Positions 5,045-25,317 of a stretch of 64,000 bases of DNA are shown here, piece by piece. Numbering within the stretch: position 1 is the first letter of the stretch; each line of letters opens with the position of its first letter. This DNA is from Modestobacter sp. VKM Ac-2982 (GTDB taxonomy: Bacteria; Actinomycetota; Actinomycetes; Mycobacteriales; Geodermatophilaceae). The notes below the pieces were generated by a model, which had not been told where the DNA came from, made no database searches, and saw nothing but the letters and a program-made list of their open reading frames with translations. The stretch is taken from contig NZ_JAPVBL010000001.1 in the NCBI RefSeq assembly GCF_026967935.1, forward strand, positions 496,001 to 560,000, given 5' to 3'. The position numbers and the translations under genes were made by a program.

Positions 5045-7120
5045 CTACGCGGGCTGCAGCGAACCGAGCACGGCCAGGACGTCGGCCGGACTCTGGGCCG
5101 CCTCGAGGCGAGCGACCTGCGCGGGGTCGACGAAGACCTCCGCGATCCGGCCGAGCAGCTTGAGGTGGTCGTCCCCCGCGCCGGCGACGCCGATCACGAA
5201 CGACACCTCCTTGCCGTTCCAGTCGACGCCCGCGGGGTGCCGCACGAAGGAGATCGCGGTGCGCCGGATGGCCGGCTTGGCCTCGTTCGTGCCGTGCGGC
5301 AGCGCCAGGCGGTTGCCCATGTAGGTCGACACCGAGGTCTCCCGGTCGTGCATGGCCTGCACGTAGGAGGGGTCGACGGCGCCGGCCGCGACCAGCAGCT
5401 CGCCGGCCTCGGTGATCGCCTCGTCCCGGGTGGTGGCGGAGCCGTCCAGGACGATGCTCTCGAGGGCGAGCACGTCGGTGCCGTCGTCGTCGCCGTCCTC
5501 GGCCAGCCGGGAGAGGCCGCCGGCCGCGGCGGGGGCGGTGGCCTCGCGCCCGGGGACGGCGGCACCGTCGGGTGCGGCGGCCGCGGTGGCCTCCTCGGCC
5601 GAGGGCGCGGCGTTGGTCTGCTTCAGCATCTCGACGATCTCGTCGTAGCGCGGGCTGGACATGAAGTCCGACACCGACACGTGCACCGCCGACCCGGTCT
5701 TCTTCTCGGCCCGGTCCGTCAGGTCCTCGTGGGTGACGACGAGGTCGTAGTCGTCGGTCAGGTTGGAGATGGCCTTGTTGACCACGGTCACGTCGTCGAA
5801 GCCGGCGCCGTGCACCTTCTTGCGGAGCACCGAGGCCCCCATGGCCGACGAGCCCATGCCCGCGTCGCAGGCGAACACGATGGAGCGGATCGGGCCCTCG
5901 CTGCGGCCGGTGCGCGCACCGGTCAGGGCCGAGGAGACCGACGACTTCTTGCCCTTGTTCACCTCCATCGCCGCGGTGGCCGCGGTCAGGTCGCCGTCGT
6001 CGTCCTTGTCCAGCTTCAGCAGGAAGGCAGCGACCACGAAGGTGACACCCGCGGCGATCAGCACGGAGGCGGTGACGCCGAGCAGGCTGCTCGGCGGGGC
6101 GGTCGCCCACACGGCGATGATCGAGCCGGGGGACGCCGGCGAGCGCAGACCCGAGCCGAAGAGCACGTTGGTGGCCACGCCGGCCATGCCGCCGAGGATG
6201 ACCGCGAGGATCAGCTTCGGCTTGGCCAGCACGTACGGGAAGTAGATCTCGTGGATGCCGCCGACGAACTGGATGAGGATCGCGCCGGGTGCCGAGGCCT
6301 TGGCCACGCCGCGGCCGAACAGGGCGAAGGCGAGCAGCAGGCCCAGGCCCGGGCCGGGGTTGGCCTCGAGCAGGAACAGGATGGACTGGCCGACCTCGGC
6401 CGCCTCGGTGGTGCCCAGCGGGGTGAGGATGCCCTGGTTGATCGCGTTGTTGAGGAACAGGACCTTGGCCGGCTCGATGAAGATCGAGGTCAGCGGCAGC
6501 AGACCGTTCTCCACCAGGACGTCGACGAGGTTGGAGGCCAGGTCGCTGAAGGCCTGCACGAACGGGCCGGCGACCACGAAGCCGACGATGGCCAGGAAGC
6601 CGCCCCAGATGCCGGCGGAGAAGTTGTTGATCAGCATCTCGAAGCCGGGGCGGATCTTGTGCGCCCACAGCGCGTCGAGCTTCTTCATCGACCAGCCGCC
6701 GAGCGGGCCCATCACCATGGCGCCCAGGAACATCGGCACCGTGGAGCCGGTGATGGCGCCCATGGTGGCGATGGCGCCGACGACGCCGCCACGCAGGTTG
6801 TCGTCGTACATCATCCGGCCGCCGGTGTAGCCGATGAGCAGTGGCAGGAGGTACGTGATCATCGGGCCGACGATCCCGGTGCCCTCGGCGCCGGAGCCCC
6901 AGGCGCCGAGGTCCTCGACGAAGCCGTAGCCGCCGGTGTACCCGACCGCGTCGCCGATCAGGGTGATCCAGCCGGTCTCGATGAACAGGGCGGTGATCAG
7001 CCCCCACGCGATGAACGCGCCGATGTTGGGCAGCACCATGTTCGACAGGAAGGTGCCGAACCGCTGGACGTGCAGCCGCACCCCTCCCGAGCGCGCGGCT
7101 GGCTGGGTGGTCGTGGCCAT
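5045..7120 (-). CDS. mtlA: PTS mannitol-type transporter EIICBA
   Basis: 691 aa fused phosphotransferase permease that imports and phosphorylates mannitol or a related polyol at the membrane. EIIC is residues 1-~370 with many membrane spans (GTFLSNMVLPNIGAFIAWG near the start). EIIB is ~405-490 with FACDAGMGSSAMGASVLRKK and phospho-Cys418. An Ala-rich linker leads to EIIA at ~545-690, with LPHGTNEAK and phospho-His609. I chose ATG 7120, preceded by AGGAGGG about 7 nt away; an in-frame ATG at 7237 would read through a CRP-like site. Divergent from a zinc dehydrogenase. Confidence 0.93.
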   Translation of the reverse strand: MATTTQPAARSGGVRLHVQRFGTFLSNMVLPNIGAFIAWGLITALFIETGWITLIGDAVGYTGGYGFVEDLGAWGSGAEGTGIVGPMITYLLPLLIGYTGGRMMYDDNLRGGVVGAIATMGAITGSTVPMFLGAMVMGPLGGWSMKKLDALWAHKIRPGFEMLINNFSAGIWGGFLAIVGFVVAGPFVQAFSDLASNLVDVLVENGLLPLTSIFIEPAKVLFLNNAINQGILTPLGTTEAAEVGQSILFLLEANPGPGLGLLLAFALFGRGVAKASAPGAILIQFVGGIHEIYFPYVLAKPKLILAVILGGMAGVATNVLFGSGLRSPASPGSIIAVWATAPPSSLLGVTASVLIAAGVTFVVAAFLLKLDKDDDGDLTAATAAMEVNKGKKSSVSSALTGARTGRSEGPIRSIVFACDAGMGSSAMGASVLRKKVHGAGFDDVTVVNKAISNLTDDYDLVVTHEDLTDRAEKKTGSAVHVSVSDFMSSPRYDEIVEMLKQTNAAPSAEEATAAAAPDGAAVPGREATAPAAAGGLSRLAEDGDDDGTDVLALESIVLDGSATTRDEAITEAGELLVAAGAVDPSYVQAMHDRETSVSTYMGNRLALPHGTNEAKPAIRRTAISFVRHPAGVDWNGKEVSFVIGVAGAGDDHLKLLGRIAEVFVDPAQVARLEAAQSPADVLAVLGSLQPA

Positions 7121-7195
7121 GAGGGGCCCTCCTGAGCTGGATCGGCAACCGCGATCGACAGGGGTCGTTCGGGCGTCTGACTGAGCGGTCGATCG

Positions 7196-7211
7196 TGTGA
7201 CGGCGATCACC
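7196..7211. promoter_or_regulatory. CRP/GlxR-like operator
   Basis: TGTGACGGCGATCACC matches TGTGA-N6-TCACA except for the last base. It lies 76 nt upstream of the PTS gene and about 190 nt upstream of the divergent dehydrogenase. Actinobacterial CRP/GlxR proteins bind such sites near carbohydrate genes. cAMP-dependent control is inferred. Confidence 0.6.
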
Positions 7212-7400
7212 CGGATCTGTGTATGTCTGTGTATCAAGCCTTCAAGCCGGGGTCAAGCGCGGACAAACCCACACGATCGCAGAGAGACCCACCCAACCGG
7301 GTGTGTGGCCGCCGTCCTACAGTGATCGGCGACACCCAGTCAGTGGCCAGCCCCGCGGCGCCGGACGGCGTCACCGTCGACACAGCACTCGGAGGACGAC

Positions 7401-8459
7401 ATGAAGGCCCTGCGGTTCTACGCCCCTGAGGACGTGCGGCTCGAGGACGTCCCCGAGCCCGAGTGCGGCCCGGACGAGGTCAAGCTCAAGGTCAAGAACT
7501 GCTCGACCTGCGGCACCGACGTCAAGATCTTCCACAACGGCCACCAGAACCTCTCCCCGCCGCGCACCATCGGGCACGAGATCGCCGGCGAGGTGGTCGA
7601 GGTCGGCGCGAACGTCAACACGACCTACGGCAGCTCCTGGGCGCCGGGTGACCGGGCGCAGGTGATCGCCGCGGTGCCGTGCGGGGAGTGCCACGAGTGC
7701 CGCAAGGGCTGGATGGCGGTGTGCCAGAACCAGACCTCGGTGGGCTACCAGTACGACGGCGGGTTCGCCGAGTACATGATCGTCCCGCAGCAGGTGCTCA
7801 AGGTCGACGGCCTGAACCGGATCCCGGACAACGTCGGCTACGACGAGGCCTCGGCCGCCGAGCCGTTCGCCTGTGCCATCAACGCCCAGGAGCTCCTCGG
7901 CATCGAGGAGGGCGACACCCTCGTCGTCTTCGGCGCCGGGCCGATCGGCTGCATGCACATCCGGATCGCCCGCGGGGTGCACAAGGTCGGCACGGTCATC
8001 CTGGTCGACGTCAACGCCGAGCGGCTGGAGATGTCGGCCAAGGCCGTCCAGCCCGACGAGGTCATCAACGGCGCGGAGACCGACGTGGTCGCCCGGGTCA
8101 TGGAGCTCACCGGCGGCCGGGGCGCCGACGTCATCATCACCGCGACGGCGGCGAACGTCACCCAGGAGCAGGCCATCGCGATGGCCGCCCGCAACGGCCG
8201 GATCTCCTTCTTCGGCGGTCTGCCCAAGACGAACCCGACGATCACCTGCGACTCCAACGTCGTGCACTACCGGCAGCTGCACATCCACGGCGCGAACGGG
8301 TCCGCGCCGGAGCACAACAAGCGGGCGCTGGAGTACATCTCCACCGGCCAGGTGCCGGTCAAGGACCTGATCACCGAGCACCTGCCGCTGGACCGCGTCC
8401 TCGACGCCTTCTCCATCGTGCAGAAGGGCGAGGCGATCAAGGTCACCGTCGAGCCGTGA
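7401..8459 (+). CDS. Zinc-dependent alcohol/polyol dehydrogenase (MDR family)
   Basis: 352 aa medium-chain dehydrogenase. The catalytic zinc site is NCSTCGTD near residues 33-40 with GHEIAGEVVEVG near 59. The structural zinc lobe is PCGECHECRKGWMAVC (~93-108), and the NAD fold begins VVFGAGPIGCMH near 174. The family oxidises sorbitol, threonine or polyol phosphates. It is divergent from the PTS permease and shares its control region, so a polyol-phosphate dehydrogenase role (GatD-like) is plausible. It is not the classical MtlD fold, so substrate is inference. Confidence 0.88.
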   Translation: MKALRFYAPEDVRLEDVPEPECGPDEVKLKVKNCSTCGTDVKIFHNGHQNLSPPRTIGHEIAGEVVEVGANVNTTYGSSWAPGDRAQVIAAVPCGECHECRKGWMAVCQNQTSVGYQYDGGFAEYMIVPQQVLKVDGLNRIPDNVGYDEASAAEPFACAINAQELLGIEEGDTLVVFGAGPIGCMHIRIARGVHKVGTVILVDVNAERLEMSAKAVQPDEVINGAETDVVARVMELTGGRGADVIITATAANVTQEQAIAMAARNGRISFFGGLPKTNPTITCDSNVVHYRQLHIHGANGSAPEHNKRALEYISTGQVPVKDLITEHLPLDRVLDAFSIVQKGEAIKVTVEP

Positions 8460-8490
8460 CCTGTCGGCGCGGCCTCCGCGGGGGGCCGCG

Positions 8491-9750
8491 CTAGACCAGG
8501 AAGCGGTAGGCGGTCGTGCCCGGCGCGAGGAGCTGGATCTTCAGCGGGCCCGCCTCGATCCGGGCCAGCAGCGGTGCCAGGCCGTCGACGCTGCCCAGCT
8601 CGATGCCGGTCAGCGCCGCCCCGGTCTCCCGGTTGTCCCGCTTGACGTACTCGAACAGCACGATGTCGTCGTCCGGACCGAGCACCTCGTCGAGGAACCG
8701 GCGCAGCGCCCCGGGCTCCTGGGGGAACTCGACCAGGAAGTAGTGCTTGAGGCCCTGGTGCACCAGTGAGCGCTCGACCACCTCGGCGTACCGGCTGACG
8801 TCGTTGTTGCCGCCCGACAGCAGGGTGACGACGGTCTGGCCGGGCTCGACGAGGACCGAGCCGCCGGTCAGCGCGGCGCTGGCCAGGGCGCCGGCGGGCT
8901 CGGCGATCACCCCGTCGACCTGGTACAGGTCGAGCATCTCGGTGCAGACCTGCCCCTCGGGCACGGTCACCAGCTCCGCGCCCGAGTCGCGCACCAGCGG
9001 GAAGGTCACGTCGCCGGCCCGGCGCACCGACGCGCCGTCGACGAACGTGTCGATCTCGGCCAGCTCCACCGGCCGGCCCGCGGCCAGCGCCGCCGCCATG
9101 TTCGCCGCACCCGCCGGCTCCACCCCCACCAGCCGGACGCCGGGGACGTGCTCGCGCAGCCAGGTGCCGCAGCCGGCCAACAGCCCGCCCCCACCGACCG
9201 GCAGGACGACGACGTCCGGCGGGGTGTCCAGCTGGCTGAGCAGCTCCATCGCCACGGTGGCCTGACCGGCGACCGTCGACAGCGCGTCGAAGGCGGGCAC
9301 CAGCGTGGCCCCGGTCATCGTGGCGTGCTCGGCGGCAGCGGCGGCCGCGTCGTCGTAGGTGTCGCCGTGCACCACGAGCTCGACCATGTCCCCGCCGAGC
9401 GCGGCGATCCGCTGCCGCTTCTGCCGCGGCGTCGTCCCGGGCACGACGACCCGGCCCCGGACGCCGAGCACCCGGCAGGCGTAGGCGACGCCCTGGCCGT
9501 GGTTGCCGGCGCTGGCGGTGACCGCGCCGGCGGCCCGCCCGGCGGCGTCCAGCTGGCTGATCGTGTTGTAGGCGCCGCGCACCTTGTACGACCGACCGAC
9601 CTGCAGGTCCTCGCGCTTGACCCACACGGCGGCGCCGGTCAGCTCCGACAGCCGGGCGTTGCGCTGCAGCGGCGTCCGTTCGGCGACGCCGGCCAGCCGG
9701 GCGGCGGCGGCGGTGACCTCGGCGGAGAAGGAGGTGCGGAGGGCGGTCAC
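8491..9750 (-). CDS. ilvA: Threonine ammonia-lyase
   Basis: 419 aa PLP enzyme converting L-threonine to 2-oxobutyrate and ammonia, the first step of isoleucine synthesis. The PLP lysine is Lys56 in GRSYKVRGAYN; the phosphate-binding loop SAGNHGQG follows at 80-87, and the Gly-rich VVLPVGGGGLLAG near 180. A C-terminal ACT-like segment (~325-419, KHYFLVEFPQEPGALRRFL) indicates allosteric control, as in the short actinobacterial IlvA. GTG 9750 is chosen because GGGAGGA lies 7 nt upstream; an in-frame ATG at 9846 has no such support. Confidence 0.93.
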   Translation of the reverse strand: MTALRTSFSAEVTAAAARLAGVAERTPLQRNARLSELTGAAVWVKREDLQVGRSYKVRGAYNTISQLDAAGRAAGAVTASAGNHGQGVAYACRVLGVRGRVVVPGTTPRQKRQRIAALGGDMVELVVHGDTYDDAAAAAAEHATMTGATLVPAFDALSTVAGQATVAMELLSQLDTPPDVVVLPVGGGGLLAGCGTWLREHVPGVRLVGVEPAGAANMAAALAAGRPVELAEIDTFVDGASVRRAGDVTFPLVRDSGAELVTVPEGQVCTEMLDLYQVDGVIAEPAGALASAALTGGSVLVEPGQTVVTLLSGGNNDVSRYAEVVERSLVHQGLKHYFLVEFPQEPGALRRFLDEVLGPDDDIVLFEYVKRDNRETGAALTGIELGSVDGLAPLLARIEAGPLKIQLLAPGTTAYRFLV

Positions 9751-16903: not shown

Positions 16904-17668
16904 TCAGCGGGCGGTCCAGCCGCCGTCCACGGTCAGGGTGTGGCCGGTGACCAGGCTGGCGGCCGGGGAGGCCAGGAAGGCCACGGCGGTGGCGACCTCC
17001 TCCGGCCGGCCGATCCGGTGCAGCGCGGCGATCCGGTCGACGACGTCGGCGCGGAACGCCGGGTCCGACAGCGCCGGCTCGGTGCCCGGCGTCTCGATGA
17101 AGGTCGGTGCCACCGCGTTGACCCGGATGCCCAGCTCACCCCACTCCACGGCCAGGCAGCGGGTCAGGTGGATGACCGCGGCCTTCGCGGTGCAGTAGGC
17201 GGACTCGCCGGGCAGCGCGACCAGCCCGGCCTGGGAGGCGACGTTGACGATCGCCCCGCCACCGGCCCGGGCCATGTGCCGGGCGGCGTGCTGGGCCAGG
17301 AAGAACGTCGAGCGGGTGTTGCGGGACCAGACGGCGTCGAAGTCCGCCTCGGTCAGCTCCAGCGCCGAGGCCATCACCCCGCCGCCGGCGTTGTTGACCA
17401 GGACGTCGACCGACCCGAGCTCGTCGACCACCCGGTCGATCGCCGCCCGGCTCCGGTCCAGGTCGGTCACGTCCATCGGGACGGCGACCACCCGGCGTCC
17501 GAGCGCGGTGATCTCCCCGGTGAGCCCGCCGTCGGAGGTGGCGTCGCGGAGGCCCAGGCCGATGTCGGCCCCGGCGGCCGCCAGCTCCAGGGCGATCGCC
17601 CGGCCGAGGCCACGCGCCGCCCCGGTGACCAGCGCGACCTGGCCCGCGAGGGCACTGCTGTCCGTCAT
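16904..17668 (-). CDS. SDR family oxidoreductase (3-oxoacyl-ACP reductase-like)
   Basis: 254 aa classical SDR. NAD(P)-binding TGAARGLGRA lies near residue 17, NNAG near 91, and catalytic YCTAK near 158 with Ser in NVASQAG. The C-terminal PEEVATAVAFLASPAASLVT and GHTLTVDGGW are characteristic of FabG-like reductases. ATG 17668 has GAGAGGA 5 nt upstream. It probably reduces a beta-keto acyl or ketone substrate, but many SDRs of this class act on sugars or xenobiotics. Divergent from the NhaA fusion gene. Confidence 0.92.
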   Translation of the reverse strand: MTDSSALAGQVALVTGAARGLGRAIALELAAAGADIGLGLRDATSDGGLTGEITALGRRVVAVPMDVTDLDRSRAAIDRVVDELGSVDVLVNNAGGGVMASALELTEADFDAVWSRNTRSTFFLAQHAARHMARAGGGAIVNVASQAGLVALPGESAYCTAKAAVIHLTRCLAVEWGELGIRVNAVAPTFIETPGTEPALSDPAFRADVVDRIAALHRIGRPEEVATAVAFLASPAASLVTGHTLTVDGGWTAR

Positions 17669-17782: not shown

Positions 17783-20437
17783 GTGAGCGCACCAGTACGG
17801 ACCACCGCGCGGTCGGGGTCCGGTCACCTCATCGCCCAGCTGTCGGCGCAGGCCCGGCGCATGCTGCAGACCGAGGCGGCCAGCGCCGGCCTGCTCGTCG
17901 TGGCGACCGCCCTGGCGCTCATCTGGGCGAACTCGCCGTGGGGCGACAGCTACGAGGCCTTCTGGCACACCGAGCTCTCCTTCGAGTTCGGCTCGACCGG
18001 CGTCGCCATGGACCTGCGGCACTGGGTCAACGACGGCCTGATGGTGTTCTTCTTCTTCCTCATCGGCATGGAGGTGCGCCGCGAGCTGTCGATGGGGGAG
18101 CTGACCGAGCGCAGCCGGCTCTCCGTCCCGGCCCTCGGCGCGATCGCCGGGCTGGTGGTGCCCGCGGGTCTCTACCTCGCGATCAACGCCGGTGGTCCCG
18201 GTGCGCACGGCTGGGGCATCCCGATGGCCACCGACACCGCCTTCGTCCTCGGCGCGCTGGCGCTGGTCGGCTCCCGCTGCCCCACCCAGCTGCGGGTCTT
18301 CCTGCTGTCGCTCTCCGTCGTCGACGACATCGGCGCGCTCACCGTGATCGCGGTCTTCTACTCCGACGACATCGACCTCATCGCCCTCGGCGTCGCGGTG
18401 CTGTGCGTGGTCGCCTTCGGGCTGCTCACCCGGCTGCAGGTGTGGCGCGGGCCGGCCTACTTCGCCGTCGGCGTGGTCATGTGGCTGGCGATGCACGCCT
18501 CCGGGGTCCACGCCACGATCGGCGGCGTCGTGCTGGGCCTGCTGGTCAGCGCCTACACACCCCGCCGGGACGAGGTCGAGTCCGCCGGCACGCTGGCCCG
18601 CGCCTTCCGGCAGGCCCCCGACGTCGCGCTGGCCCGCCGGGCGAAGCTGTCGGTGGAGCGCGCCATCTCGCCGAACGAGCGGATCGGCGCGCTGCTGGTG
18701 CCGTGGAGCGGGTACGTCGTCGTCCCGGTGTTCGCGCTGGCCAACGCGGGCGTGCAGTTCGACACCGAGCTGCTGGACCGGGCGCTCACCTCCCCGATCA
18801 CCGTCGGCGTCTTCGTGGGCCTGGTCGTCGGCAAGTTCGTCGGCATCGGGCTGGCCTCGACCCTCGCCGTCCGCTTCGGCATGGGCTCGCTGCCGCCCGG
18901 GGTGACGCTGGCCGCCGTGTGGGGCGGGGCGGCGCTGTCCGGCCTGGGCTTCACCGTCTCGCTGTTCGTCGCCGACCTGGCCTTCGACGACCCGACGCTG
19001 CGTGAGGAGGCGATGGTCGGCGTCCTCGCCGCGGGCGTCGTCGCCGCCGCGCTGGGCGCGGTCTGGTTCTGGGCGCTGGGACGGCGCTCGCCCCAGGTGG
19101 CCCGCCCCGGCCCGCGGCAGCTGGACCCGCCGGTCGACCCGGCGGTCGACCACCTCCGCGGCCGGGTCGACGCACCGCTGACCCTGGTCGAGTACGGCGA
19201 TGTCGAGTGCCCCTTCTGCGGCCGGGCGACCGGGGTGGTCGAGGAGCTGCGGCACCGGTTCGGCGACGACCTGCGGTACGTCTTCCGGCACCTCCCGCTG
19301 CCCGACGTCCACCCGCACGCCGAGCTCGCCGCCGAGGCCACCGAGGCCGCCGGCGCGCAGGGCGCCTTCTGGACGATGCACGACCGGCTGTTCGCCCACC
19401 AGGACCAGCTGGAGGCCGACCAGCTGCTCGACCACGCCGCCGCGCTCGGGCTGGACCTCGGCCGGTTCGCCGCGGAGCTGGGCAGCGGCACCCACGCGGC
19501 CCGGGTTCGCAGCGACGTCGTCGGCGCCGAGGCCAGCGGCGCGCGGGGCACCCCGACGTTCTTCGTCAACGGCGTCGGGCACGACGGCCCGACCACCACC
19601 GAGTCGCTCGCCGCCGCCCTGGTCGCCTCCGACCCGCGTGGTCCGGGCCACGGCAGCCTGCTGCCGGCGGCCGAGCTGGTCGCGCCGGCACGGTCGTCGG
19701 TCGCCTTCTCCCCGGCCGCCGAGCTGCCGGCGATCAGCGTGCTGCCCGGCGAACGCCTCGCCGAGACCCCGGACGACGGCTCCTCCCCGCGACTGTCCGA
19801 GGAGCACATCGCCGTGCTGCGGCGGGTGGGGCGCCGGCAGCGCACCGTCCGCGGGCAGGTGCTGCTGCGCTCGGGGCAGGCGGAGTTCGACTTCTTCGCC
19901 GTCATCGGCGGCACCGTGGCGGTCGTCGAGGGGCCGCTGGACGGCGGTCCGGACGGCGGCAAGCGGGTCGTGGCCGTCCACGGGCCGGGCCGTTTCCTGG
20001 GCGGGCTGAACATGCTGGCCGGGCAGCGGCCGGTGCGCTCGCTGGTGGCCGCCGAGGACGGCGAGGTGCTGGTGCTCAGCCTGGAGCAGCTGCGCGCCGT
20101 CTTCACCCGGGACCGCGGGCTGGCCGACGTCATCACCCGGTCGTTCCTGCTGCGCCGGGCGATGCTCATCGGACAGGCGAGCGGGCTGCGGGTGGTCGGC
20201 GACCGGCGGTGGCCGGCCAGCGCCGCACTGCAGGCCCAGCTGGCCGAGGACGGTGTGCCGCACACCTGGCTGGACCCGGCCGAGGACGCCGCCGCCGCCC
20301 GGCTGCTCGCCGAGATCGGCGCCGAGGACGCCGGCTCCCCGGTCGTGCTCACCCCCGACGGCCGGGTGCTGGTCGAGCCGACCCGTGAGGAGCTGGCCCG
20401 CTCAGCCGGCGCCTCGCGCGACCTGACGACCACATGA
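17783..20437 (+). CDS. nhaA: NhaA antiporter fused to DsbA-like, cNMP-binding and glutaredoxin-like domains
   Basis: 884 aa multi-domain protein. Residues 1-~440 are a NhaA Na+/H+ antiporter with ATDTAFVLGALAL and SVVDDIGALTVIAVFY, whose DD is the ion-binding aspartate pair. Residues ~455-640 form a DsbA-like thioredoxin domain, GDVECPFCGRATGV with Cys476/Cys479 and cis-Pro GTPTFF. Residues ~670-790 resemble a cyclic-nucleotide-binding beta-roll (FFAVIGGTVAVVEG, GPGRFLGGLNMLAG). From ~802 a glutaredoxin-like tail lacking CxxC (GLRVVGDRRWPASAALQ, VPHTWLD) resembles one usually fused to thioredoxin reductases. The first two domains are a known pairing; the last two are unusual here. Confidence 0.9.
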   Translation: MSAPVRTTARSGSGHLIAQLSAQARRMLQTEAASAGLLVVATALALIWANSPWGDSYEAFWHTELSFEFGSTGVAMDLRHWVNDGLMVFFFFLIGMEVRRELSMGELTERSRLSVPALGAIAGLVVPAGLYLAINAGGPGAHGWGIPMATDTAFVLGALALVGSRCPTQLRVFLLSLSVVDDIGALTVIAVFYSDDIDLIALGVAVLCVVAFGLLTRLQVWRGPAYFAVGVVMWLAMHASGVHATIGGVVLGLLVSAYTPRRDEVESAGTLARAFRQAPDVALARRAKLSVERAISPNERIGALLVPWSGYVVVPVFALANAGVQFDTELLDRALTSPITVGVFVGLVVGKFVGIGLASTLAVRFGMGSLPPGVTLAAVWGGAALSGLGFTVSLFVADLAFDDPTLREEAMVGVLAAGVVAAALGAVWFWALGRRSPQVARPGPRQLDPPVDPAVDHLRGRVDAPLTLVEYGDVECPFCGRATGVVEELRHRFGDDLRYVFRHLPLPDVHPHAELAAEATEAAGAQGAFWTMHDRLFAHQDQLEADQLLDHAAALGLDLGRFAAELGSGTHAARVRSDVVGAEASGARGTPTFFVNGVGHDGPTTTESLAAALVASDPRGPGHGSLLPAAELVAPARSSVAFSPAAELPAISVLPGERLAETPDDGSSPRLSEEHIAVLRRVGRRQRTVRGQVLLRSGQAEFDFFAVIGGTVAVVEGPLDGGPDGGKRVVAVHGPGRFLGGLNMLAGQRPVRSLVAAEDGEVLVLSLEQLRAVFTRDRGLADVITRSFLLRRAMLIGQASGLRVVGDRRWPASAALQAQLAEDGVPHTWLDPAEDAAAARLLAEIGAEDAGSPVVLTPDGRVLVEPTREELARSAGASRDLTTT

Positions 20438-20793
20438 GGTCGCTCGACGAGGAGCTCACCGACCTGGCCGACCACTACCGCTGGTTCGCGCAGGTGGAGG
20501 CCGCGCCGCTCTCGCCGCGGTACGCCGCGCTCGCCGCCGCGGTCGCCGAGGACGCCGAGGTGCTGGCCTTCCTCGGCACCCTGCCGCGGCCCAAGCGGCA
20601 GGCCAACCTGCTGCTGGGTGCGCTCCAGTACGGGCCGCTGGTCAACGCCGGAGACGTGCGAGCCGTGTGGGCGGTGCTCGACCCCGGCCGTCAGCGCGCC
20701 GTGGTCGACGCGCTGAGGACGGTCACGCTGCATTCGCCGGGCCGGGGACGGCGCAACTTCGACGCCGAGTCGGTCGGGGTCACGCCGCGCTGA
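20434..20793 (+). pseudogene. Truncated DUF2332 family gene
   Basis: 119 aa resembling only the N-terminal third of DUF2332 proteins (about 330-350 aa): LADHYRWFAQVEAAPLSPRY, then LPRPKRQANLLLGALQYG. After about residue 95 the match ends and the frame closes in unrelated sequence (LHSPGRGRRNFDAE). Its ATG overlaps the NhaA stop (ATGA). The break coincides with the left edge of the atypical 20.8-24.0 kb segment, so an insertion or deletion probably removed the rest. Confidence 0.7.
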
Positions 20794-20817
20794 CGTCGGC
20801 CGTACCGCGCCGGCGGC

Positions 20818-21417
20818 GTGGCTGAAGAAAACTCCGTCTCTGAGCTGCATCGACCGCCCCTTGCTGATCCGGCGTACTCCGATCGGCTGCTGTTGGCAAT
20901 CGGTCACGTAGCGGCAAGCAGTGCCCAACTCGAAGACCTGCTGCCAGAGATGCTGGCGGACTTCGTCGGCCACCTGTGGGCCGGGGTCTTGTGGGAGAGG
21001 CAGTCGACCGAGTGGCTGTTGCGGTCGGCGTCGCGGCTCTTGTCCGAAACAGACCCGTACAACCGCGAGTACGCGGCCGGCCAGCACAAAGGCTTCTACG
21101 CACTGGTGGCCCAGGGGCGAAGGTTGAGTGGGCTTCGGAACTTTGTGGTGCATGGATGGTTCCGCCGTAACGGTGTGCTGGAAGACGACCTGATCTCGCG
21201 GCCCTGGGGCAACTGGGACTCTGAGACGCCGTTATTTTGCATGCCTTCTCGCACCGGCTCGCTCCTGCAAGAGCAGATGTTCGCCGTGACTGACGTTGAG
21301 CGACTGGCCGACGAGCTGAGCGACCTCGCGGTGCGCTGGGCGGCTCTCTGGCAGGAGATGCGCGGCGGCTGGGTCTTGCGTCGTTGGAATGTTGAGCCGG
21401 CCGAAGGAGACGCATGA
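20818..21417 (+). CDS. Uncharacterised HEPN-like helical protein
   Basis: 199 aa with no named family I can assign. It reads as mostly helical: RLLLAIGHVAASSAQLEDLL, then a long central helical stretch, then GLRNFVVHGWF near residue 108. R-N-F-V-V-H fits the Rx4-6H signature of HEPN domains with the usual polar residue after Arg; many HEPN proteins are RNases in toxin-antitoxin or defence systems. GTG start, no strong ribosome site. Codon use is visibly less GC-biased than neighbours, suggesting transfer. Function is inference from one motif. Confidence 0.6.
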   Translation: MAEENSVSELHRPPLADPAYSDRLLLAIGHVAASSAQLEDLLPEMLADFVGHLWAGVLWERQSTEWLLRSASRLLSETDPYNREYAAGQHKGFYALVAQGRRLSGLRNFVVHGWFRRNGVLEDDLISRPWGNWDSETPLFCMPSRTGSLLQEQMFAVTDVERLADELSDLAVRWAALWQEMRGGWVLRRWNVEPAEGDA

Positions 21418-21777
21418 GCACGACGGAGCTGGTCGTGTAGATCGTGGGCGCGTAGCAGATGCACCCCGCGCGGCTGGTGGTCGGCGAGCTGCGCCAGGGA
21501 GGAGCGCCTGGACCTGGCGGAGTCAAGCTTCGACGAGTAGGCAGCCGCGAATCGGTCGGTTGGAGCCGCCGACGCAGGGCCAGCCTCTGACATAGCTTGA
21601 CCGTGTGAGCGACTACAACGACGGGATCGTCCGGCGGTTCGTGTAGTTGAGACCTCGTCGAGCTAGACGCCACGACACCACGCGTCGGCGTTGGCTGCAC
21701 CCGGTCGCTTGATTGGTGCCGCCTATGTCGAGTACGCGTGTCGAGTGCCACTTTCCGGGCTGGAGAGGTCGTCGTGG
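21418..21777. other. Noncoding stretch in the insert
   Basis: 360 nt after the HEPN-like gene with stops in all frames and no convincing ORF, hairpin or repeat. It may be decayed coding sequence. Confidence 0.5.
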
Positions 21778-22722
21778 CTAGGGATTGCGAATGGACCGAA
21801 AGACTTCAACCGCTTCTCTAACATCCGACATGAGGCTTGGAGTGAGCCCAGCGCGTGCCAAGGCGAGGACTCCGAAAGCGGTCAAGGCCGTGATTACGGG
21901 CAACGTGTAGGAGCCGATATCGAGCGCGGCGAGGATCGTGGCGCCGATGAAGCACGCGACGGCGACGGCTCCCACCAGGATTCGTGTCCGCCAGGACGGA
22001 CCGGCTGGCATCGGTGCCGGCGTAACGGTGCGCACCAAGTGCCAATCGTTTGCCAGGACATGCGCGAAGTCCCGGGTCAACTCCTTCAGTATTAACGGGT
22101 AGTGTAGCGGGCTCAGAGTCTTGAACCGTCGTAACCGGGTGGCGATGCCTTTCGCCCAGTGCTCAAAATTCTGTGTTGCGACTGGATCACCTGGATCTAG
22201 GTGATGTGGTATGCGTTCAAACACTCTCGCTAAGGCTTCAAAACGTCGGTTCATCCTTGCCCTGCGGTCGAGCGTGGCTCCAGTCGTGCAACCCATATCA
22301 AGATCTCCCACGGCAATGCCGAGCCAAAGCAGTGCATCATGGGGGGCGGATCGCCGCATCGCACCTTTGTGCGCGCTGAAGAATGCAAGCAAGGCAAGTA
22401 GCAGAAATGGAACTAGGAGCCAAGCTGATACCAAAAGACTCTCGACGATACGCTGGGCCAGCGCAACTCCGGTCAGTCCGGCCGACCAGTGGTCATGGAT
22501 TGCCAAAGTCGCGACGGTGACGCTGAAGAGAGCGCCGAGGATGATCAGTGCGTAGAACACTAAGTAACTGGGGCGGTAGATCCGGGAACTCTTAGCGTCG
22601 GCGACCGCGAGGGCTTTCAAGATGTCTTCTTCACTCCGCGTCCGAGTCGCAGCAAGGCGGGCCGCACGATCGAGGGAGCCCTGGCGCTCTCGCAGGCGCG
22701 CCTTTCGCTTGCGACTAGCCAT
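21778..22722 (-). CDS. Uncharacterised multi-pass membrane protein
   Basis: 314 aa, not recognised. The N-terminus is highly basic (MASRKRKARLRERQGSLDR). Two membrane helices follow (LVFYALIILGALFSVTVATL and VESLLVSAWLLVPFLLLALL), then a cytosolic-looking region of ~130 residues with HHLDPGDPVATQNFEHWAKG, and a second pair near the C-terminus (LVGAVAVACFIGATILAALD onward). ATG 22722 has GAGGAG about 11 nt upstream; a frame from 23058 is open but unsupported. It converges on the HEPN-like gene. Base composition is foreign to the region. Confidence 0.65.
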   Translation of the reverse strand: MASRKRKARLRERQGSLDRAARLAATRTRSEEDILKALAVADAKSSRIYRPSYLVFYALIILGALFSVTVATLAIHDHWSAGLTGVALAQRIVESLLVSAWLLVPFLLLALLAFFSAHKGAMRRSAPHDALLWLGIAVGDLDMGCTTGATLDRRARMNRRFEALARVFERIPHHLDPGDPVATQNFEHWAKGIATRLRRFKTLSPLHYPLILKELTRDFAHVLANDWHLVRTVTPAPMPAGPSWRTRILVGAVAVACFIGATILAALDIGSYTLPVITALTAFGVLALARAGLTPSLMSDVREAVEVFRSIRNP

Positions 22723-23185
22723 GGCGCAGGATCTCCTCGGGTAGTTGGCTTGTCCGTCCTGCAGCCGCCTGGGGCGGCTTGAAGTCTCGCCGTAGTTGGC
22801 GCTGAGCCAACGGGCTGCGCTGAAAGCGTGCTCTCGCAGGAATCGTTCGGCGAATCCAGGCAGCGCACTGCCGTCGGTGGGGCCGCCACCTGCGGACCGG
22901 CCGTGCCTACTTGCCGCTACGCACACTGTCGCAGGAGCCGCGCATGCACGCAGGCGGCAGGATTGCTCCCGTGAACGTCGACACGCCCCTGTGGGTTCTC
23001 CTGACGCGAGCGCCTTCGGTGGTGCTGTACTCACTGGCCGGGTCACCCTGGGCACCAAGCTGCTCGATCTAAGGCATCGACACGACGCGACGAGGCGTGA
23101 TCCCTACGTGGAGGCGATGGCCGCGCTTGACTCTCTTCATCGGGCCTTGGTGGATGCATGCTGGTTGTAGGAGGATCAGGGGCCT
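22723..23185. other. Noncoding stretch in the insert
   Basis: 463 nt with no ORF I can support on either strand and no clear repeat. It would contain the promoters of the membrane protein (minus strand) and the small ORF at 23186. Confidence 0.4.
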
Positions 23186-23467
23186 GTGCCGTCTGACGCG
23201 GAGACGCCAACACCGCCTCTGCAGGAAGCCCTGGACGCACTGAATGCAGCTCGGCTGGCTGTGCTGAAGGTCAACCTCTCCGCGCCAACAAGAGTGGCCG
23301 CGCTCATGGTCGACGTCTATGTCGGCCTGCAGGCGGACTACAGGAGGATGGAGCATGCGTTCGAAGGTCAGCAGCTGGAGGAGCGGCTAGAGGCGCCTCC
23401 GTTCCCGGCGACGCTGTGGACGACTTGCGAGTTGCCGTCCGGCGTGATCTTGGTGTTAGGCGGCTGA
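23186..23467 (+). CDS. Possible small hypothetical protein
   Basis: 93 aa from a GTG with AGGAGG about 11 nt upstream. The N-terminal half looks like an amphipathic helix (LQEALDALNAARLAVLKVNL); the C-terminus is LWTTCELPSGVILVLGG. No family recognised. It lies inside the atypical insert and could be a fragment. Confidence 0.4.
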   Translation: MPSDAETPTPPLQEALDALNAARLAVLKVNLSAPTRVAALMVDVYVGLQADYRRMEHAFEGQQLEERLEAPPFPATLWTTCELPSGVILVLGG

Positions 23468-23617
23468 AGCTGAACTTCTAGTCCTTTCAGAAACCTGTGT
23501 AGTAGCTCTAGCTTTCCTTCTTGCCATGGAGGCCCGGGGGCATGCACCTGTGGCGGTGCCTGCCTCGCGTCGCGCCGTTAAGTTCGCTGGGCCGACTACC
23601 GTGCGGTAAAGGTTTAG

Positions 23618-24019
23618 ATGGACCCGGTGCAGCACGCCGCCCTGTCGCGGTGGCACAACACTTGGCCAATTTCTTGGTGCCGTATCGATCGTGGCCCCCG
23701 GGTGGTCGCCCGGGTCAGTACACGTCCGGGAACCGGGCTCGTCGTCGGAATAGTCCTTGTGGTGCTTCTTGGAGCCCTAGGACTGGTGCTGCGGGGACTC
23801 GGCGGGCTGAAACAGTCCCCGAGAGTGAATGCCTACGGCTACTTCGTCGGGGCGGTGGCGTACGCGGCCACGACTTCAGACACTTCCAAATGGTTTGCCG
23901 GTTTTCACGCAGTCGTAGCAAGGTCGCTGCCTCGCGGTTCGAATCGGGGCGACCGTAGCAATCTGTGCACTAGATCTGGCTACTTGCTGCGGTGCGTCTG
24001 CCTGATGTCTTGCCCTTGA
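23618..24019 (+). CDS. Doubtful single-span membrane ORF
   Basis: 133 aa frame whose only notable feature is one hydrophobic stretch, GLVVGIVLVVLLGALGLVL near residues 40-58. The flanks are low-complexity and Cys-rich at the end. No ribosome site and no family. The surrounding 23468-24054 segment is otherwise empty. Confidence 0.2.
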   Translation: MDPVQHAALSRWHNTWPISWCRIDRGPRVVARVSTRPGTGLVVGIVLVVLLGALGLVLRGLGGLKQSPRVNAYGYFVGAVAYAATTSDTSKWFAGFHAVVARSLPRGSNRGDRSNLCTRSGYLLRCVCLMSCP

Positions 24020-24054
24020 AGGCGTGCCCACCCGCACCGTGACGGCGGTCGGAC

Positions 24055-25317
24055 TCAGGCCGACCAGGTGGTGTTCGGCGGGCGGCGGTGGTCGATGGTG
24101 TGCGGCACGAAGAACGACAGGTCGTCGGTGATCAGCCCGTCGGACTCGCGGATGCCCAGGCCTGCGGCCTCGCCGTCGACCACCCAGGTGCCGAGCACCG
24201 GGTGGTGCGGGCCGTCGGGGCCGGCGAAGTCCGGGAGTGCGCACAGTTGCTGCACGACCCAGCCCTCCGCGCCGTACTTCCCACCGAGTGAGGCCAGGGG
24301 CTCGCCCCCGGGGGCGAACAGCTCGACGTTGTTGCCCTCCCGGCCGAACAGCGGCTTGCGGGCGTAGCCGGTCTGCTCCAGCTCGGCCGCCCGGGGATCG
24401 TCGGCGAAGTACGCCCGGAGCAGGTGCTTGCCGATCACCGGGTCGTCGGCGTAGCGCTGCCACAGCACCGGCAGCAGCCCCTTGTTCGACCACAGCATCT
24501 TCCAGATCGGCTCGATCCAGGTCGTGCCGTCGGGGGTCCACAGGTCGGCGATGACCGAGGGGCCGTACGCGTCCTCGAGCAGCCACTCCCAGGGGTAGAG
24601 CTTGAAGAGGACGTCGATCCGGTTGCCCTTGGGGTCGTAGAACCGGGCGTCCCCGGTGTCCAGGGCGAGCTCCTCGGTGGTGAGCACCACCGTTTCGTAG
24701 CCGGCCCGCTGGACGGTGTCGGCCAGGTAGGCCACCGTCATCCAGTCCTCACCGCTGCGGTCGCCGTCGGTCCAGGCCAGGTGCACCCGGGGACGGCGGC
24801 CGTGCTCGGCCTCCCAGCGGGACAGGTTGCGCCGCCAGGCGTCCACCAGTCGGTCGTCCAGCTGGTTCCACTGGTCGCGGCCCTGGCCGGTCTCCAGGTG
24901 CCAGGCCCACTGCACGACCGCGGCCTCGACCAGCGAGGTCGGGGTGTCGGCGTTGAACTCCAGCAGCCGGACGGCGCCCTCGCCGTCCCACCACAGGTCG
25001 AAGCGGCCGTAGACGCTGGGCGGCTCGGCCTCCCAGGTGGCCTTGATGACCTCGCGGGCGTCGCGCGGGATCCGCATCCGGTCCAGCAGCCGCTCGTCGG
25101 CCAGCGCCACATCACCGGCCTCCACGCAGGCGGCGAAGAGCTGGTCGGTCACGTCGGCCAGGTGGTCGATCTGGGCGGCGGTGAAGTCGTAGAACACGTC
25201 CTCGCGCCAGTACGAGCGGGTCTCACCGCCCGGGACGGTCGTCTTGTTGTAGACCAGCCCCTGGCTCTCGATCTCGGCCTCCCAGCCGCGCCGGGCCGTG
25301 CCGTAGAGCCGTCTCAT
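24055..25317 (-). CDS. Glutathionylspermidine synthase family ATP-grasp ligase
   Basis: 420 aa, matching the synthetase domain of glutathionylspermidine synthase and E. coli YgiC/YjfC. Visible landmarks are VYGRFDLWWDGEGAVRLLEF, then NADTPTSLVEAA near residues 115-150, DVLFKLYPWEWLLEDAYG near 245, and the ATP-grasp core KPLFGREGNNVELF near 330. The family forms amide bonds between a peptide-like carboxylate and an amine. Actinobacteria generally use mycothiol rather than glutathione, so the substrate is open. ATGA overlap with the upstream lipoprotein gene indicates a functional pair. Confidence 0.9.
   Translation of the reverse strand: MRRLYGTARRGWEAEIESQGLVYNKTTVPGGETRSYWREDVFYDFTAAQIDHLADVTDQLFAACVEAGDVALADERLLDRMRIPRDAREVIKATWEAEPPSVYGRFDLWWDGEGAVRLLEFNADTPTSLVEAAVVQWAWHLETGQGRDQWNQLDDRLVDAWRRNLSRWEAEHGRRPRVHLAWTDGDRSGEDWMTVAYLADTVQRAGYETVVLTTEELALDTGDARFYDPKGNRIDVLFKLYPWEWLLEDAYGPSVIADLWTPDGTTWIEPIWKMLWSNKGLLPVLWQRYADDPVIGKHLLRAYFADDPRAAELEQTGYARKPLFGREGNNVELFAPGGEPLASLGGKYGAEGWVVQQLCALPDFAGPDGPHHPVLGTWVVDGEAAGLGIRESDGLITDDLSFFVPHTIDHRRPPNTTWSA

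Follow-up and report, generated by a model that had tools for sequence, protein, structure and literature searches.

NhaA is a textbook antiporter whose control is attributed chiefly to pH. Two described transporters offer parallels to the protein reported here. The sperm Na+/H+ exchanger SLC9C1 carries a C-terminal domain of the cyclic nucleotide-binding (CNB) type (PMC6052114, PMC10620091), and the bacterial K+/H+ antiporter KefC is controlled via its cytosolic C-terminal domains by thiol and electrophile chemistry (PMC11150392, PMC10224563). In Modestobacter, we find an open reading frame of 884 residues that joins an NhaA antiporter, a DsbA-like domain with a CPFC motif, a CRP-type beta-roll and a glutaredoxin (Grx)-like domain devoid of cysteine. 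It resembles SLC9C1 as a Na+/H+ exchanger that ends in a CNB-type domain, but SLC9C1 belongs to another antiporter family, possesses a voltage sensor and a real cAMP site, and has no thiol domain; Pfam detects no voltage-sensor domain in the fusion, and its binding cassette lacks the Glu/Arg signature of a functional cyclic-nucleotide site of the SLC9C type. The two are a parallel design rather than relatives. KefC shares with the fusion the control, in our case proposed, of a bacterial antiporter by thiol chemistry through a cytosolic C-terminus, whereas it is from a different transporter family and employs a KTN (Rossmann) domain and glutathione instead of DsbA-like and CNB/Grx domains; its architecture, too, is unrelated to that of the fusion. 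In the open-access literature we found no paper on NhaA-thioredoxin or NhaA-CNB fusions.

The gene occupies positions 17783-20437 on the forward strand of the window, by which we mean the whole 64,000-nucleotide stretch that was analyzed, and it begins with GTG and ends with TGA. A divergent gene for a short-chain dehydrogenase (SDR; family named from sequence motifs only) lies upstream (16904-17668, reverse strand), the start codons of the two genes being about 114 bp apart, and a DUF2332 gene lies downstream (20434-20793, forward strand), its start overlapping the stop of the fusion as ATGA. Third-position GC is 0.95-1.00 throughout the reading frame and gives no hint of a junction between two genes near 19750. 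Full-length orthologues with the same C-terminus (69-97% identity) occur in Modestobacter and other genera of the family, including 19 of 23 sampled Modestobacter genomes. A sequencing frameshift near 19750, which the earlier note had named as a possible undoing of the fusion, is excluded, as is an assembly join, by this even third-position GC and by the full-length orthologues in many species. The chance that a sequencing or assembly error created the fusion is negligible, and that explanation is already refuted, given an identical full-length architecture across many independent assemblies and a codon composition that runs evenly through the junction. Every folded domain is under purifying selection: dN/dS is 0.11-0.24 in NhaA and 0.09-0.29 in the beta-roll, and the Grx-like part, at 0.12-0.56, is the least constrained of them. 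The four-domain protein is real and conserved.

The NhaA domain (residues 26-428; 17858-19066, forward strand) covers the whole of the Pfam model Na_H_antiport_1 (PF06965; E 2e-136, 455 bits), and the NCBIfam equivalog TIGR00773 (NhaA) scores 345 bits against a cut-off of 254. The ion-path residues D133, D163, D164 and K300 of E. coli NhaA, whose roles are established, have their counterparts in D151, D181, D182 and K351 of the fusion, which are invariant in A1. Judged from its sequence, the NhaA domain would still transport. The window's genome also encodes a second, ordinary NhaA of 465 residues without extra domains (L002, C1:742767-743948, reverse strand).

The DsbA/Thioredoxin_4-like domain (residues 456-613; 19148-19621, forward strand) matches Pfam Thioredoxin_4 and DSBA (E 1e-18 and 6e-15) and has solved relatives in 4pwp, 7unn and 3gyk. 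Its CPFC motif (residues 476-479; 19208-19219, forward strand) and cis-Pro motif GTP (residues 589-591) are both invariant, and the only two of the protein's four cysteines that never vary are C476 and C479. No hydrophobic segment was found after residue 440. Both termini of E. coli NhaA are cytosolic, and because of this homologous topology the three extra domains of the fusion are likely to reside in the cytosol, including the DsbA-like domain, whereas classical DsbA is periplasmic. The earlier note had recognized NhaA followed by a CPFC thioredoxin domain as a known actinobacterial fusion; this two-domain actinobacterial pair is indeed widespread in the class. These NhaA-DsbA antiporters share the NhaA and CPFC domains with our protein (45-58% identity over 600 residues) but stop after the DsbA-like domain, whereas the fusion continues into a beta-roll and a Grx-like tail. 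Separate NhaA and DsbA-like genes also occur as convergent neighbors at three loci (L111, L112 and L113), in genomes or copies that lack the fusion.

A variable linker (residues 621-660; 19643-19762, forward strand), with lower conservation and dN/dS of up to 0.98, leads into the tail. The beta-roll with its C-helix (residues 661-798; 19763-20176, forward strand) was recognized by Pfam (cNMP_binding at residues 690-776, E 1e-9, over its cut-off), AlphaFold2 and Foldseek. The AlphaFold2 model of residues 655-884, built from a 65-row alignment, has a mean pLDDT of 79.6 and consists of a CRP-type beta-roll and a long C-helix followed by beta-alpha-beta-alpha-beta-beta-alpha; a full-length model reached a pLDDT of 47 and was not used. 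Searched against the PDB with Foldseek, the two-domain tail returned CRP/CNB folds (for example 5h5o, TM 0.82 over the target) and CNB matches only. The remaining segment (residues 801-876; 20183-20410, forward strand) matches no Pfam model. From its secondary-structure order, profile matches and weak matches to viral glutaredoxins (E about 0.02-0.03), it appears to be a glutaredoxin/mycoredoxin-like domain: when the 80 C-terminal residues are searched as a profile, mycoredoxin-1 Rv3198.1 (2lqo) is the best PDB match (E 7e-6), and the NCBIfam mycoredoxin model is matched below its cut-off by 24 of 32 members, with a weak match at residues 811-870 of the fusion. No family model reaches its curated cut-off in this domain. 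Mycoredoxin-1 has an active CxxC, whereas the fusion has WPAS at that position (residues 810-813), so that no redox chemistry is possible there; neither CxxC nor CxxS is present, and the whole tail module contains no cysteine. All four domain names given in the earlier note were correct, as were its expectations that the C-terminal 200 residues fold as cNMP-binding and Grx-like domains and that the latter lacks CxxC.

The phosphate-binding-cassette region (residues 734-758, GPGRFLGGLNMLAGQRPVRSLVAAE; 19982-20056, forward strand) departs from that of a cyclic-nucleotide sensor. In all 14 close antiporter orthologues, Gly replaces the ligand-binding Glu and Pro occupies the canonical Arg position, while the stretch is otherwise invariant. 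With the Glu/Arg pair lost from the cassette and no cysteine in the tail, the module is itself redox-dead and unlikely to sense cyclic nucleotides in the canonical manner; the beta-roll probably lacks the customary mode of binding cAMP or cGMP.

The origin of the tail was traced by a scan of named genomes in a public collection with residues 655-884 as the query, keeping the best 80 loci. Thirteen of these are antiporter fusions, all from Modestobacter or an unclassified member of the Geodermatophilaceae, and every one of the 67 others is a cNMP-Grx-TrxR-like flavoprotein from Actinomycetota or Ktedonobacter, in agreement with the earlier suggestion that the tail resembles the N-terminal module of thioredoxin reductase (TrxR)-like fusions. 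A zf-UBP gene is found near 43 of these 67 flavoprotein loci, mostly less than 400 bases upstream. The first 220 or so residues of the flavoproteins correspond to the tail and are homologous to its beta-roll (38-42% identity between the tail and their N-terminal half), but the flavoproteins are of a soluble type, keep the cassette Glu and carry SPDT at the Grx active-site position in place of the WPAS of the fusion. The fusion has no C-terminal FAD/NAD(P) domain; its reading frame ends after the Grx-like domain, and this end is conserved in relatives. Among 51 cNMP-Grx flavoproteins from loci L127-L193, the cassette Glu is present in all and the canonical Arg in none. The TrxR CxxC is likewise present in none of the 51, nor in the REC-Grx flavoproteins (L094); one Cys is retained in most of the TrxR-like domains, where it forms part of EAxxC shortly ahead of GGGNSAG. 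This family of cNMP/REC-Grx-TrxR-like flavoproteins without CxxC looks unstudied, and the present data point to it as a signaling rather than a thiol-reducing system.

The same domain order was sought in other genomes, as the earlier note had proposed, and was found in two forms that are 52% identical to each other. Form A occurs in Modestobacter and two other genera (g11 and g12), and form B in Geodermatophilus (g5, including Geodermatophilus ruber, NZ_FOSW01000002.1), in g7 and as a second copy in one further genome (G021). The four-domain proteins found in 299 genomes of the order all belong to Geodermatophilaceae, with two-domain NhaA-DsbA proteins elsewhere; a sample of 297 genomes from the class added one further four-domain protein, from another order (G513). 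Its NhaA-DsbA part shares 62% identity with two-domain proteins, and its tail shares 50% with flavoproteins. With that protein included, placing every four-domain protein in a single clade is rejected for the NhaA-DsbA tree (AU p 3e-5) but not for the tail alone (AU p 0.36). The NhaA-DsbA result implies that the tail was acquired on two or more occasions, or else that it was gained early and then lost many times. For forms A and B alone a single origin is not rejected (AU p 0.675 for the tail and 0.378 for NhaA-DsbA), and these two may share one origin.

Examination of gene neighborhoods revealed a link to flavoprotein and kinase genes in form B. An MFS transporter gene is directly upstream in 18 of 21 form-B loci, and eight of the 21 show the order MFS, fusion, REC-Grx-TrxR-like, cNMP histidine kinase (cNMP-HK). 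In all eight, the last codons of the fusion contain AGGAGG at a distance of 11 bases from the stop, and this stop shares bases with the start of the following gene, as ATGA or GTGA; judging by sequence, the fusion and REC-Grx-TrxR-like genes look translationally coupled. The conserved C-terminal end of these form-B proteins (L064 and L083-L089), with Q-E near the last residues, encodes the CAGGAGG ribosome-binding site of the next gene. Downstream of two-domain NhaA-DsbA genes, REC-Grx-TrxR-like and cNMP-HK genes come next at 9 of 58 loci, all nine in a single genus of another order (g115); at one of them (L249) the gap is 43 bases, and at others an alpha/beta hydrolase gene intervenes. At a further locus (L269), a cNMP-Grx-TrxR-like gene lies divergently at about 3 kb from a two-domain gene. 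Since form-B and two-domain loci share these REC-Grx-TrxR-like and cNMP-HK neighbors, the linkage of NhaA-DsbA to the flavoprotein/kinase set occurs both with and without the tail. The linked histidine kinase (L094 9032-10465, L249 9480-10898) begins with a cNMP-type domain, and from the cassette of this domain, too, the Glu/Arg signature is missing. At another two-domain locus (L232), the gene for a CPA1-type Na+/H+ exchanger that carries zf-UBP as its C-terminal domain (5186-7060) ends 27 bases before the NhaA-DsbA gene (7087-8967). No flavoprotein or kinase gene adjoins form A, the form in the window, whose neighbors are the divergent SDR and DUF2332 genes; in the window's genome, the REC-Grx-TrxR-like and cNMP-HK genes are on another contig (L094), together with one small gene of the zf-UBP cluster.

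Together, these observations suggest a model, to which we give about even weight, in which the NhaA antiporter would be controlled by the thiol/flavin redox state of the cytosol through the CPFC motif and a cysteine-free adaptor tail. The CPFC pair would engage in thiol-disulfide exchange and serve as a cytosolic thiol switch. The tail, a CRP-type beta-roll with a dead glutaredoxin fold, would have been taken from the front half of cNMP-Grx-TrxR-like flavoproteins; it may dock to, or mimic, the REC-Grx/cNMP-Grx flavoproteins and the cNMP histidine kinase, receive a conformational signal from that system and hand it on to the antiporter. The homology of the tail to flavoproteins at all 67 non-antiporter loci among the best 80 suggests such a role, as do its attachment to NhaA-DsbA in both family forms and in the G513 protein from outside the order, the flavoprotein/kinase linkage in form B (8/21) and at two-domain loci (9/58), the convergent adjacency of NhaA and DsbA genes where these are unfused, and the invariance of the NhaA ion-path residues and CPFC alongside the loss of ligand residues from the cassette. 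Against the model, form A, the window's own, is not beside flavoprotein or kinase genes, and gene linkage may reflect shared regulation without contact between the products. Since no TrxR CxxC is present in the partner flavoproteins, electrons cannot be presumed to reach CPFC by an ordinary route; the same result weakens a thioredoxin-reductase electron relay as the mechanism. More tentatively, these proteins could constitute a recurrent class of bacterial antiporters set by NAD(P)H/flavin redox and built up repeatedly from an NhaA-DsbA scaffold, with CPFC as the switch and the degenerate CNB-Grx tail as a plug-in docking unit that they have in common with the CxxC-less flavoproteins linked to two-component genes. 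If true, this redox-set design would parallel eukaryotic SLC9C1 without cyclic nucleotides. A single chain of NhaA, thiol and sensor domains, gene-linked to flavoproteins and a histidine kinase, offers a testable route by which redox could set Na+ and pH balance.

A different possibility, somewhat improbable in our estimate, is that the DsbA-like domain is a working, membrane-tethered cytosolic thiol-disulfide oxidoreductase, with the tail docking a reducing flavoprotein and NhaA being a passenger or a source of local pH. The invariant CPFC and cis-Pro, the gene linkage to flavoproteins and the separate DsbA-like gene that adjoins NhaA in some genomes would all suit such an enzyme, but the invariant ion-path residues of NhaA and the strong purifying selection on it count against this reading, as does the absence of CxxC from the partner flavoproteins. 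The earlier note had instead proposed a transporter that reads both redox state and a cyclic nucleotide. Its redox half stands in part and is still inference: with no cysteine in the tail, such reading is possible only through CPFC, and gene order links the protein to redox and two-component genes. Its cyclic-nucleotide half, in which the beta-roll would bind the nucleotide and gate the transporter together with redox, as in SLC9C1, is unlikely. Although Pfam cNMP_binding exceeds its cut-off, the best structural matches are CRP/CNB folds, and a cassette so strictly conserved in close orthologues may bind something, the replacement of Glu by Gly in 14 of 14 and the Pro at the Arg position speak against this reading, and form B retains the Glu but lacks the Arg, while the cNMP domain of the kinase is also without the signature.

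That the tail is instead a functionless relic of gene fusion seems quite improbable. The loss of the ligand Glu and of all cysteines, and the position of the Grx-like part as the least constrained folded domain, are as expected of a relic, but the dN/dS values of the beta-roll and Grx-like domains, the retention of the tail across several genera and its repeated joining or loss are not.

Downstream of the fusion, positions 20631-24055 of the window form a stretch of lower GC (0.57-0.72) that takes the place of about 0.87 kb in the nearest relative (L114, 6887-7755). No tRNA was found in the window. This stretch cuts off the DUF2332 gene after about 79 matching residues, and the truncated product has 119 residues, compared with about 330 in relatives.
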